A stretch of DNA of 64,000 nucleotides from Polychytrium aggregatum (lineage: Eukaryota; Chytridiomycota; Chytridiomycetes; Polychytriales), in assembly GCF_025602895.1 (NCBI RefSeq), contig NW_026516232.1:62001-126000 (forward strand), written 5' to 3'. The notes below the pieces were generated by a model, which was not told where the DNA came from, did not search any database, and saw nothing but the letters and a program-made list of their open reading frames with translations. Each line of letters starts with the position of its first letter. The first letter of the stretch is position 1. This document shows positions 9,579-53,300 of this stretch, in pieces. Made by a program: the position numbers and the translations under genes.

Positions 9579-12500
9579 ATGAACTATGGCCCTCCTCTAG
9601 CGGGCCCAGGGCGGCTTCACGACCTTCCCGACCTTCCCGATCCCAGCGGCCCCGAGCAGAACCCTCATCTCGACAGCGATGGTCCCTACGGCTTGAGGCT
9701 GGAGCACTTTGCGACCACGGACACCGCCGTCAGCGATCCGCTGTTCTACAACATCCGCCCTCAGACCACCGTCACCCCCCTGCAATGGCTGAGGAGTCGG
9801 GCCCGCAAGCACCCGAGGCCCTCCGAACCCATAGCCGAGCCTGAGCCTGAGCCCGTGCCCGTTCCCAATCTCGCGAATGCATGTATTATCTCGTCACTCC
9901 TGCGCCTCGGATGGACCTGGCTGACCACCGTATTTTGTGCCATGGGACTTGCTCCCGGCCCAATGATGCATCGCTGCGGTCGGCAGCGGCAGCATTCCAG
10001 CATCTTGCCGGGATGTTCCTCGGCTTCTGCTTGGACTCGCTTCGCCGCTCCGCCTTGAAGGGTTCAATGTCGGCTGGTCAGCCAGTACATCGCCTCGGAC
10101 CTGCCTGACAGCCCTTTTAACGCTGTCTGCCGACTTCCCCTGGCCTGGTGCCTTTGCAGAATGCTACCCCTCGACGGCCGCCCTCAGTCTACAGCGACTC
10201 GACCGATCAGTCCAAGGAGTTGCCGCGATGGAGAGCTCGTGTCTTCCACATCCTCCACAACCGCAAAGAGTCGCCGCTGGGGCGGGTCCTGCATTGGGTC
10301 TTTCTACTGGGCCTGTGGATCTCCATCGCCAACTTTTGCATCGCAACGGTTTCGCAGATCACCGAGCACCCTGAGGCCCGGGTATGTGTTCGTTGCGCTT
10401 CGTCGATTCATGGCCGATTCTGGCCTGGAAGGCGTCAGCGCCTGTGCCATCCAAGCACCCCGAAACTTCCACCGAAATGCATCCGCTGCCCTTCGCCATC
10501 GCACCTGCCTGACTGCACATCATGGCCAGCTCTCGGGCCTTGCTCCTCTCCTCCGCTGTATTCTGACCCTGTGGCCCGATCGTGGTTCTGTTCGAGCAGG
10601 TGGCACTCTTCTGGATCGATTTCGCCACGACCATGATTTTCGTCGTGGAGCTCACGATGCACATCATCGCCTCAAGGTCATGGCGGACGCTCTTCACTTG
10701 GTCGCGGGTGATTGATTTCATGGCCATTGTGCCGTTCTTTATCGAGGTTATCGTTTCCTGGGCCCTGCGCCAGGATCCGATCGAGTACAGCTACTCGATG
10801 GGCACCATGAACTCGCTCCGCACCCTCAGGGTGCTGCGAGTCTTCAAATTCTTCCTCAAGTCGTCCAAGGTAGTCCACAATACCGCGCCGTCTCGCTCCG
10901 TGCTTTCAGCAACATGGCTTTCTGATACCGAGTCGATTCTGCCTTGCCCTCGGCTTTGGCTGAGACTGGCTGTGTTTCAGAGCTCGACGCACGGGCCATG
11001 CTTCTGACTTTATTCCGTTCCTAGCTCAATTTCCTGGTTCAAGCGCTGTACAACTCTCGGGATGGTGAGGACTTGGCGCTGGCTGCATTCATGGAGGTGC
11101 GCGGGATCATGTCGTTGTGCACGTCGGCTGACTCGGTCCATTCCAACTCTCAGGAATCCTCGCTTTGGTCTATGTGCTGCCGCTCATCATCTTGTTCTTT
11201 GGAACGATGGTGTTTTTCGCGGAGCAGTCCGAAGAGGTTTACGTCAATGGGGTATGCTCGCGGGGGTGGGAGTCCCATTTACATCTAAACGAGGACACGC
11301 AAAGCTACTCCGAGTTGACTGAGCGCTGTGGATTTGATATGAGCCGCCAACCATCTCCCCCCTCACCTCCGATTCACCTTACCCGTGATCGTTCGATTAC
11401 AGGTGTGGTACTATAAGGCGACAGGCAACCCTGCCAACTTTCAGTCGATACCGTCAACGTTTTGGTTCATGATGGTCACTCTGACAACAATCGTACGTAC
11501 AGCCCGGACTGGACGCGATCGGTATCTGTCTCTGGGGCGATAGTGACGCCGTGTGTGCATGCGGATGTCAAATGTGCTTGCGGATGTCAGATGCGCTTGA
11601 CAAATCAGTGCGGTTGTGCCCAAGCGCTCATGTGTTCGTGTGCTCATGTATTCATGCACTCGTGTGCTCCCATTTTTCTCCTGTGGCGGCTCTGTTGACT
11701 CGTACCACGACTGTCGCTGTGCTGGTGGCTCTCCAACCTCTGGTGGAACCTATCTGGACGTATCCGGACATATCCTTCACTCGCTCCGTGTGGGTTCAAC
11801 TCACAAAATCAACGCTGTTCCCTGTGGATACGCTTACCTTACGGATCCTTCTGGTGCATCAGGGGTAAGTTGCTGCTGGCAGATGGTATGGGTACGGGAT
11901 TGCGACGCTGTGTTCGGATGGCGCACACCACTCCTCATAACCACTCACACCCGAATCCTACATTTCAGCTATGGCGACGTCGTGCCTCAAACCACGCTCG
12001 GAAAGATGGCGACCATTGGTGCCATGGTGGCCGCCATGTTCGTTGTTGCTTTCCCGCTGACCATGATCACCACGCAGTATACCGTGATCGTCCGCAAGTT
12101 CAACCAGAAGCGGCACAAGGAAAACGAATGGCACAATGCCATGGAGCTAGCAGCCGCGAGAGCGCTCATGTACAAGACGCCATCGCAGCAACAGATCAAT
12201 CCTGCTTCCAGCGCCACCCTTCCAGCTCCCGGGGCATCGCAGACGCTCTGGGTTGGCACCCCACAAAAACCAGAGAGCATCCGGCTCAGTCTTACGCCCC
12301 CGACTCCTGTGATCGAGACAAAGCACTTCCCCACCCCAAACATGCCGCCCGAAAGCGCCATCATCGAGATCCCGGACTCGGCCGCATTGCAAACACCCAA
12401 GGGCAGCCCCACCCAGATCGCCTCCAATCCAAACTTCCCATTCGACTTTACTCAGCTCCACCAAAAGTTTGCCGAGCTCATGCGAGATACGGACCAGCAG

Positions 12501-13472
12501 GATTCCCGCTCGTCGCTGTCGATCTACGATGACCTGGGCGGCGTGGCCGATGCCGATGCCGAAGACACTGCTGAAAGCTCGCAAGAGGATATGTTGGACA
12601 TGGACCCGAGCTTCGAGCCGGCGCCGGCGCCGGTGCCCTCGGTAAGGCAAGTCACTTTCGCCCTCGACCGCGACCAGCAAGCCAGCTCGACCCAGCAAGC
12701 GCAGTTTGTCGCCGATCCCAGCGACCCTGTCGTCGACGGCGACGCTATGCCCTTTGGCTTTCCTCTGGAAAAGTTTGGAACCACGGGCGACCTCGACGAC
12801 ACGCACACCGCCCGCAGTCGAACGGCCCCGCTGCGGCTTCCTCGAATCAGCAAAATTGCCAAAAAGATCCGCGATCGTGCTCGCCGCGATTTCGGCCTCG
12901 CCTCAGGTACCGCTTCGGTCTCGCCAGTAGCCGGCGCACTCCCCAGCCCAAGAGGATCTACTTCGAAAGCTGCTCCAGCCGACGAAGGCGGCTCGTCGAC
13001 CTCGATACGCTACAGCGCAGGCGACAAGGATGCCGATGGCAAACCGAAAGCCCGCGGGATGCACCGGTCACGAAGCCAAGGATTCGGCCCGCAGTACATG
13101 TCCTCGCCGGACCTCCTCTCTGGCGCTTCGTTTCCTGGCCTGCCCGAGCCAGGGCCTGAAGACCGCTTTGCCATCCCGCCGCTGAAGCCCCATCGCACGC
13201 GTCGAAACTCGACATTCTCGTCGTCGCCCCGGACAAGGGATCTGTCGAAACGACACTCGGTCTTTGACCATTATCCGTGTGCGAGCTGCATCGAGCGCAT
13301 GATGGAGCCTCGGCTCGACGGAGGCGAGGCGCCCAACAGCGTCTATCTGCGTGTCGTTGATTGGCGACACCAAATCGGCGACGGGGTTGAAGAGGACGTG
13401 CTGATGATGAAGATTGCCATCACCGAGCCTGGGCAGTACAAGAAACTGATGAAGGCCCTGGCCGAAATCTGA
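9579..13472 (+). CDS. Voltage-gated potassium channel alpha subunit (6 TM, Kv-type)
   Basis: Plasma-membrane K+ channel. Exon 1 starts at ATG 9579, within MNYGPPLAGPG; its 3' border near 9880 is unresolved. Later exons fit by phase: 10160-10381 (S1, VLHWVFLLGLWISIANF), 10600-10869, 11025-11064, 11154-11251, 11403-11492, 11863-11864 and 11969-13472. The third carries S2, S3 and an S4 with five basic residues at every third position (RTLRVLRVFKFFLK). S5 is ILALVYVLPLIILFFG. The pore helix is FQSIPSTFWFMMVTLTTI, followed by GYGDVVP and S6. The signature TTIGYGD is completed only if a 2-nt exon supplies GG. The cytoplasmic tail is about 450 residues, low-complexity at first and ending in LMKALAEI. 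I see no BTB/T1 domain at the N-terminus. Kv channels are common in animals and known in zoosporic fungi, but absent from yeasts. Confidence 0.85.
11863..11864 (+). other. Predicted 2-nt micro-exon (GG) in the K+ channel gene
   Basis: Exon 6 ends ...ACA ACA ATC (11492) before gtacgt, in phase 0. The pore exon begins C TAT GGC after ttcag (11968). Two bases, GG, are needed to give Ile-Gly-Tyr-Gly-Asp. At 11861 the sequence reads ..gcatcag/GG/gtaagt.., a perfect acceptor and donor around exactly GG. Flanking introns would be 11493-11862 and 11865-11968. Confidence 0.65.
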
Positions 13473-50383: not shown

Positions 50384-53300
50384 TCAGCTCCTTTCCGAAG
50401 CGCCCTCGGCCTTGAGGATCTTGCCGAGGCGCTCTTGGAGCGACGAAACCTCCTCGATGATGACCCCGCCGACGACCGGATCTCGCTTGTCACGCTTGGG
50501 AAACTTGAGATACACCTCGCGGATGATCTCGACGGCAGCCTGGGCAGCCTCTCTGGCGAGCAAGGAAGGATGCACACGGAGATAGCAGTCAGCAATGCAC
50601 TCAGCAGTCAGCACTGCAGTCCACAGAAGTCAGCACCGCCGCTTCAACCGTGTGGTGTGTTGGCCAAAACGACTTCAACAATCTCGTTGGACAATGTGCA
50701 CTCCCAAGTGCTTACCTGAGTGCAGGTGAGGCCGGAGACTTGCCTATGTATTTCTCGATGTGCTCCAAGCTTGTGAGCACGTTGGCACCGGTGTTGCTGT
50801 CGCAAGACATGATGGCACTTGAGTCAAGATCCCTCCCGCACAGCAGCTTCGTTGCCTCGTCGCTCGACAACCCCGGCGAGGTCAACCGGTCTGCGATGGG
50901 TTGGGGCCCCAAAGTAACAGCCAGTCAACCCTGCTCGGCCGCGACGCTCCCTCGCACTCTGCCTACCTCAGAATCGCACACATGGTCTGTGCCATCCTCT
51001 GAAGAGCCTCGAGCCCTTCGCGGTCCCACTGGCTCTTGTTCTCACCCGCCTGGGCAAAGTAGCATCCGATCCGCAGCTGTACCACAAGCAGCTCCCGTGT
51101 CCGCTTCGCAAATTCCAGAGCCAGCTCGCCCAGGGTCGACTTGGCTCCGCCCTCAAGAACCTTGGTGATGCAGCTCAAGATCTGACCCTCGGAGTGCCGT
51201 TTCAGACGCACGAGGGCCACTCGCTCGGCGTGCTTGAGGACGGTTTTGATAAAGTCCGTTTGCGGATAGTTCTGTTGATTGTGGGCGAGATTCCCCCACC
51301 ACCGAAGTGTTGATGGAGAGCACATGCCACGACGAGGACAGCAGTTATAGCTCGCATTCCGTTCATCCATCGACTAATCCATCCATCCATTCGTTCATCC
51401 ATCGACTAATCCATTCATTCACTGATCCATCCATCGATTGATCCATTCATTGATCCATGCATTCATCCAGTCATCCGCCCCAAGCTCGCCCCCACGCAGA
51501 CTAACTACTCACCGTATTCATCTCAAAGAACACAATAAAGTATTCTTCAAAACGTTTGGTTGCCACGAGGCAGTCCAGGTAAATGCGGCTGCTGTATGCC
51601 GATATGGTCTTTTCTCGGTTCACGACAAGATGGCCGAGGCCATCCCGTCCGCCGGTGGTGTCGCTCCCGACTGGAGTAAACAGGCGCACAATATCTTCTT
51701 CCACCGATCTGGTTGGGTTGGCCAGCAGCTTCATGACCAGCCTGGAAAATGGCACGGAGGTGTGTCGTGTCATAGTTTCTGAGGAAACCGAACTTCAAAA
51801 CCATGGCGCAACTTGATTTCTCACATTTCACACACATCGCATTTCACACACATCGCACTTCACACACATCGCATTTCACACACATCGCACTTCACACACA
51901 TCGCATTTCACACACATCGCATTTCACACACATCGCACTTCACACTTACGCCTCCAATTTTAACATTGGGATAACGTTCTTTGGGTTCGTTACGGTCGTC
52001 TCGATCATGGCCCTGCGGCGGCTGTTCGTGTCGGTTGGGGGACTCACTTGGATCGACACCTTCCCGTTCAAACCCAGCTTAGGCTCCTCTGCCAAGCTTG
52101 CCAGGTTATTGATCGTCATGGACGTCGGCGTCGATGGCCCTGCCACCGATATTGACGTTCTGAGAGTTGGTGTGCCGAGCTTGGCGAGTTTGGTGTCGAG
52201 GAATGGAGTCTGGCTGCCGACCGAACCTCCTTGCATAACGCTGGTGACAGACTCGCTTCGCTCTCGCGAGGGACCGGCGCGGTACGGGCGGATGGGCACA
52301 AACTCGATCTCGCCCTGCCGCTTGGCTTCGTGGTATTCTGCAATGATTGTCTGACGAGGCTTCTGTCCAGCTGTCGTCAACAGAGCGTCTTCGCCCGCTA
52401 GAGCGGTCACCGGCGGCATCCACCTGCCTTGGTCGTGAACCGTCGGGAACAGCATGATGTTGTACAGATCCGCCAGATCCTGCAGATGCCGCGCCGGGTC
52501 GTCTTCATATATCTCCGTGAACTTGATTCCCATGGCGATGCCCTTGCAAAAATCGTTTTGGAGGACACATTCGACCAGGCTCTGCAGCGACTCGACATCC
52601 ATGTAGGTCGAGTCGGCCTGCATCCCATCGCAGATGGCTCTGGCAGACACAGACAAGCGAAGGAAGCACGATCGTTGAGTATCTGGTTTAGCTGCCCCGA
52701 CTACGCTCCGAGAGCCCGGCGCATCCCCTCGCACACCCACAAACATATGCATGCTCCTCCATCCAGGGAGCATAACATTGGCAAGACACGGGGGCGATGA
52801 TCCAAGCTTACTTTTCTGCCTGGAGTGCTTGTTCCCAGCTGCCTCGCTCAACGCTCCGGAGCGAGTTGAATCTTAGCGTCTCGAGCTCGAACGACTTCCG
52901 GAGCTTGACAGGGATCTGCAGCGAGAGCAGACAAGATGCCGTCGGTAAATGAAATCGTGCACCACGAAGCAATCCCTGCTGCGACACTGATCGGTGCATC
53001 GCTGCTTTGTGTCGACCGGCACACTGATAACACCATGCACTGGCTGGTCCATTTGTCCCTGCCATATCACAAACCGGATCGACCCTTGACCTCACGCAGA
53101 GTGGCAAAGAAAAAAACGTACCAATCCCCACCACTGCGTCATCGCCTCAAAGTTTGGCGGCAGAAAGTAGGTCCACTGCTGGAGGTCGTTGCGCAGCTTT
53201 CCAACCATCTCGTTTCCGCCGATCTTCTGACCCGTCGAGAGCCTGTGCTCGCTGTCAAGCGCATTCGGGGCCACCGTCCACGAGTCCGGCGATACTGGAG

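Follow-up and report, generated by a model that had tools for sequence, protein, structure and literature searches.

Five Kv-type potassium channel genes of one genome very probably share a 2-nt exon within a glycine codon of the selectivity filter

The GG dinucleotide at positions 11863-11864 of the window (the whole stretch of 64,000 nucleotides analysed, C224:62001-126000) is very probably a real and old 2-nt exon, most likely constitutive, of a Kv-type K+ channel gene, to judge from the DNA of this gene and of its relatives in the same genome. An earlier sequence-only reading had proposed a 2-nt micro-exon as the source of the opening bases in the codon for the first filter Gly. This is supported by five Kv genes which are split at the same codon and share the motif AG/GG/GT (slashes mark exon boundaries). 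The window copy, K1, is modelled as follows, with helix names S1-S6 assigned by analogy with Kv channels.

9579..9878, forward strand: tentative N-terminal coding exon 1, with the ATG at 9579 and an unsettled 3' end
10160..10381, forward strand: exon of the S1 region, phase 0 to 0; the Pfam Ion_trans match starts at model residue 43
10600..10869, forward strand: 270-nt exon with S2-S4 (SLRTLRVLRVFKFF), which has a 270-nt counterpart in paralogues K2, K3 and K4
11025..11064, forward strand: exon of 40 nt, a length shared by all five genes; phase 0 to 1
11154..11251, forward strand: 98-nt exon with S5, phase 1 to 0 (98 nt in all five genes)
11403..11492, forward strand: exon of the pore turret and pore helix, translated as VWYYKATGNPANFQSIPSTFWFMMVTLTTI, ending ...VTLTTI in phase 0 and followed by gtacgt
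11493..11862, forward strand: upstream intron, 370 nt, gtacgt...gcatcag
11863..11864, forward strand: putative micro-exon of 2 nt, whose GG would form bases 1 and 2 in the codon for the first Gly of TTIGYGD, the selectivity filter; AG/GG/GT in all five Kv genes
11865..11968, forward strand: downstream intron, 104 nt, gtaagt...atttcag
11969..13472, forward strand: last coding exon, which completes the Gly codon by its third base and goes on with YGD, S6, a long tail and the stop codon; a related stretch occurs in the four other genes

From exon 2 onward the spliced K1 model comprises 741 residues. Its last exon opens with a C at 11969, directly after atttcag, continues with TAT GGC GAC from 11970 and has a stop codon that ends at 13472. 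The peptide of exon 1, LEHFATTDTAVSDPLF, resembles LERFDTNDTVFSDPLF of K2 when compared by eye. Candidate phase-0 donors of this exon are gtgccc (9855), gttccc (9861), gcatgt (a GC donor, 9879) and gtattt (9930), while position 9883 has a GT in the wrong phase. Elsewhere in the window, positions 51824-51945 hold a tandem array of a 16-base unit (CATTTCACACACATCG) in 7.6 copies with 95% matches.

By domain content and alignment, the gene is a voltage-gated K+ channel of the Kv/Shaker type. The Ion_trans domain (PF00520) spans S1-S6 (residues 43-289 of the spliced model, E 2.7e-29). The core of K1 matches Kv4.2, Kv3.1, Kv2.1, Kv1 and Shaker chains, the best match being Kv4.2 (7e87, E 3.9e-23), and that alignment runs ungapped through the filter (ttigygdvvp / ttlgygdmvp). 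The regularly spaced S4 charges R127, R130, R133 and K136, which align with those of Kv4.2, are invariant in all five genes. The filter itself is in frame in each of them (TTIGYGD, TTLGYGD or TTVGYGD), in every case only with GG included. The host is most likely a flagellated, i.e. zoosporic, fungus, as indicated by domain matches in the genome to Chitin_synth_1 (26), Fungal_trans (a transcription factor domain of fungi, 11) and Radial_spoke (8), numbers that count pieces rather than genes; each of the three domains is absent from all 14 prokaryote controls. Shaker-like K+ channels have been reported in Chytridiomycota and other early-branching fungi (PMC7678990, PMC3410928). As described there, they are six-helix voltage-gated channels with a G[YF]G[DE] filter, as in K1. 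The word intron is missing from both main texts, and the word exon also from that of PMC7678990; under these terms, neither deals with gene structure.

The exon frames of K1 confirm that the exon ending in TTI (phase 0) and the exon opening with C-TAT-GGC-GAC give TTIGYGD only by the addition of GG. The GG that had been proposed, at 11863-11864 (cag/GG/gtaagt), is the only AG-NN-GT in the 476-nt interval. It is likewise the only single-codon in-frame cassette of this interval: with exons of up to 150 nt and introns of at least 40 nt on each side, 13 stop-free cassettes of length 3n+2 can be enumerated and GG alone ends in Gly. The eight open frames of at least 60 aa on both strands of 11300-12100 offer no rival reading of the interval. 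However, AGGGGT is present in 4.8% of 20,000 dinucleotide shuffles of the same interval, so that K1 by itself is only suggestive. Just 3' of the micro-exon, the intron sequence at 11880-11898 (cagATGGTATGGGTACGGG) reads G-Y-G in one frame, probably by chance.

The genome searched comprises 64.7 Mb in 418 contigs. Each half of the pore, used as query, finds at least eight places, haplotigs included, which correspond to five Kv genes.

K1: the window (C224), forward strand; haplotig on C29
K2: C101; haplotig on C61
K3: C370, from 204992 on
K4: C370, from 216875 on, reverse strand
K5: C143, reverse strand; haplotig on C381

K3 (L042, G000:C370:202500-209500) and K4 (L043, 213500-219500) lie about 11 kb apart in opposite orientation with their 3' ends facing each other. 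The pair possibly represents an old local duplication, and the two proteins are 36% identical. A long array of CATCCA hexamers is found upstream of K5 (L046, reverse strand, about 5390-5220).

The five genes have the same architecture around the pore, with exons of 40, 98, 87-99 and 2 nt followed by a long last exon, and with like phases. The 270-nt exon is present in four of them, K5 carrying this part inside a 553-nt exon. The split falls at an identical codon throughout, in phase 0 before GG and in phase 2 after it. The pore exon ends in phase 0 with TTI, TTL or TTV (last codons ATC, ATC, CTG, ATT and GTG for K1 to K5), and the last exon opens with the third base of Gly (C, G, A, A and A) followed by TAY GGN GAY. 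AG/GG/GT occurs exactly once in each split interval (232-476 nt); beside these, the five intervals offer a single AG-NN-GT candidate of 2 nt, a CC in K2. The position of GG varies widely, the introns on its two sides measuring 370/104, 84/156, 118/181, 135/106 and 136/94 nt in K1 to K5. The stricter form YAG/GG/GTR is found in four genes, while K5 has aag. All 31 modelled introns start with GT and end with AG. AGGGGT is found in none of the 21 other modelled introns of the five genes, a control that leaves out the N-terminal introns of K1 and K3, located upstream of the modelled exons. These 21 introns are 89-224 nt long. Eight of the ten introns flanking GG fall within this range; one has 84 nt and the K1 upstream intron, with 370 nt, is the longest.

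In all five genes, the DNA thus holds a putative internal exon of less than 3 nt between an AG acceptor and a GT donor, required for the reading frame and conserved among relatives, here paralogues. The product of the AGGGGT shuffle rates is 2.2e-9 for the five genes and about 4.6e-8 for four, when K1, the source of the hypothesis, is set aside; as the genes share descent, these products speak against coincidence only and not for five independent origins. Identity at fourfold-degenerate sites between genes is 0.23-0.39, compared with 0.28-0.32 from base composition. Comparison of all modelled introns (blastn-short, E up to 0.05) gives no match between one pore intron and another, the single match being 12 bases long, between intron 4 of K1 and intron 6 of K3 (the latter a pore intron). 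The core proteins, on the other hand, are 37-57% identical to K1, which indicates purifying selection on both sides of the split. Since silent sites are near chance and pore introns cannot be aligned, AG/GG/GT, like the protein, looks to have been kept by selection while silent and intron sequence was randomized, conservation being measured here among paralogues of one genome. We infer that the 2-nt exon had a single origin before the gene duplications.

A simpler splicing scheme would remove the whole composite intron (476 nt in K1) at once, a non-standard boundary providing the two bases needed, either GT on the donor side or AG on the acceptor side, with an altered filter. A single splicing event would suffice, and the outer boundaries are indeed GT and AG. 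However, the first filter Gly would be replaced by Val in all five genes if the bases came from the donor side, and by Ser in K1 and Arg in K2-K5 if they came from the acceptor side, whereas the solved Kv relatives in the alignment carry Gly at this position. The boundaries used would moreover lack GT or AG, and the presence of AG/GG/GT in all five intervals would be unexplained. Such a scheme appears extremely improbable.

A longer alternative exon had been named as a finding that would refute the micro-exon. Apart from GG, an in-frame cassette ending in Gly was found only in K4 and not in K1, K2, K3 or K5; it is 86 nt long and would place 28 additional residues in front of the filter Gly. 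TTxGG does not occur a second time in any of the five intervals. The other route of refutation was a base error at 11493, and in its general form this explanation supposes that GG is missing from the assembly at 11492/11493, a single normal intron following ATCGG. The loss of two nucleotides would produce an identical frame break. Against this, the C29 haplotig is identical to K1 at the junction and throughout the interval, yet differs elsewhere (over 3.27 kb, by three SNPs and an indel of 2 nt), and the loss would have to recur in five genes whose last codons differ. A base error at this place is thus very unlikely, and an assembly loss deserves virtually no credence.

It could also be proposed that the motif is a recursive splice site or part of a stwintron, a relay for the removal of a long intron that leaves nothing in the mRNA. 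AG/GG/GT resembles a zero-nucleotide relay plus two bases. Stwintrons are, moreover, known in fungi (PMC6616335): as described in that source, adjacent introns are removed by consecutive reactions through intron definition, as we propose here, but no exon bases remain between them, whereas GG must stay. A zero-base relay would cause a frame shift and an early stop in all five genes. Every gene goes out of frame if the interval is removed entirely, and where a zero-nucleotide recursive site has AG directly before GT, GG stands between the two in each case. A relay would also have no need of GG, yet all five genes have it. A relay without retained bases is therefore very improbable.

The preferred reading remains a 2-nt exon that is retained. 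On an exon of just 2 nt there is hardly room for U1 snRNP on the donor together with U2AF on the acceptor, and for this reason the two flanking introns (370 and 104 nt in K1) would probably leave in two consecutive steps, through intron definition. If the upstream intron leaves first, the intermediate would read ATCGG/gtaagt; if the downstream intron does, it would read cag/GGCTATGG. Whichever the order, both intermediates would resemble normal substrates and the spliced product would be ATC-GGC-TAT-GGC-GAC, that is I-G-Y-G-D. This stepwise removal, as well as the inclusion of GG in the mRNA and its constitutive use, we infer from the gene structures. Splice signals differ among the copies: the micro-exon donor is gtaagt in K1 and K3, while less than ideal signals, which count against the reading as does the length of the K1 upstream intron, are found in K5 (acceptor aag), K2 (donor gtatga) and K4 (donor gtaatc). 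Among the 10 flanking introns, 7 carry a YTRAY/RTAAC-like branch site 12-70 nt before the acceptor, compared with 17 of the 21 others. The K1 upstream intron lacks one, and only cttac was noticed by eye. As judged from these words, there is no sign of decay of the branch sites in the flanking introns and none of special strength.

Errors at either step would be costly. Skipping of GG shifts the frame at the filter in all five genes, with the next stop 9-564 nt into the last exon; in K1, YGD, S6 and the tail are lost. Retention of the downstream intron places a stop directly after the Gly (TTxG-stop) in four genes and 11 codons later in K2, and retention of the upstream intron leads to an early stop in all five. 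Such early stops would suit a regulated switch, in which stage or stress would decide on the inclusion of GG, channels would arise only from transcripts that contain it, and the skipped form would be decayed or yield a truncated subunit. A switch-like micro-exon has been reported in Xlr2 of Trichoderma (PMC11121469), a study whose authors also refer to earlier tests in fission yeast. However, any exon whose length is not a multiple of three shifts the frame on skipping, so that the frame shift by itself is no evidence of regulation, and the gtaagt donors of K1 and K3 count against it. Regulation of this kind is compatible with the 2-nt exon reading and seems unlikely.

Ultra-short exons as a kind are already known, with 1 nt in plants and 2 bp in human. 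Arabidopsis has a constitutive exon of 1 nt (PMC4674806), and the plant genes APC11 and VPS55 have exons of this length that were proven by RT-PCR or RNA-seq (PMC4674806, PMC8831610). As presented in these sources, they are similar to the exon described here: internal, shorter than a codon, between two introns, not a multiple of three, long conserved and missed by annotation. They differ in that the plant exons are 1 nt long and RNA-proven, whereas the fungal GG is 2 nt long, occurs in five channel paralogues inside the selectivity filter and is known from DNA. The human 2-bp micro-exons of GRK6 and SEPT7 (PMC9929638) equal GG in size and show that splicing can include an exon of 2 bp. However, that of GRK6 belongs to a minor transcript and that of SEPT7 is alternative and located in the 5'UTR, whereas none of the five genes found keeps its coding frame without GG. 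A 4-bp micro-exon of human MPC1 is still spliced in when cut to 2 or 1 bp, and the authors favour exon definition even for very short exons, with 2, 1 and even 0 bp handled (PMC9929638). This view is the opposite of the intron definition proposed here. PMC13149111, PMC8042270 and PMC12409088 gave nothing against the micro-exon reading. No description of a 2-nt exon in a K+ channel gene was found in the open-licence literature, where exons named as 2-nt led only to plant papers on 1-nt exons and to two papers on unrelated matters, a weak negative since the wording varies (2 bp). As far as searched, a 2-nt exon in a fungus, its seat in a K+ selectivity filter and, given a single origin, its persistence over four or more duplications are new.

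Other K+ channel filters read in the genome are not split in this way. An uninterrupted-filter pattern has 26 sites, compared with 12 for the reversed control, and many of these sites are therefore due to chance. Among 12 of the 26 examined by eye, only L049 (TTIGFGD), L058 (TTGYGD) and L052 (TIGFGD) are pore-like. They represent three other K+ channel genes with the filter within one exon, and the split is thus seen only in the Kv group. In L052 (about 1499, reverse strand) and in L058 (about 1486) an acceptor-like AG precedes the filter codons by no more than about 15 bases; the genome may thus repeatedly have introns that lie close to the filter but leave it whole. No relatives of the channel were found in viral contigs. 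In bacterial and archaeal contigs, 568 stretches encode a relative, and TTVGYGD is contiguous in all of the best 80; this count carries little weight, as one search pattern held VTLTT.GY, the motif was sought in the forward frame only and a stricter pore-helix test failed in all 80. Neither the viral nor the bacterial and archaeal contigs yielded a fungal relative.

If the present reading is true, GG is among the smallest coding exons known and provides two bases of a famous codon of channel biology. The five genes would be natural replicas, with unrelated introns and splice sites of varied strength, and would offer a test bed for exons too short for exon definition. A bolder proposal, which we consider quite unlikely, is that the whole Kv family of this fungal lineage stands under one splicing checkpoint, stepwise splicing setting whether working K+ channels are made. 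An ancestral 2-nt exon would then have been kept through every duplication, for instance in connection with the wall-less zoospore as opposed to the walled thallus, and failure of either step would give a protein cut at the filter. Standard gene prediction could yield broken or filter-less K+ channels in such genomes, and counts of fungal Kv channels may therefore be too low.
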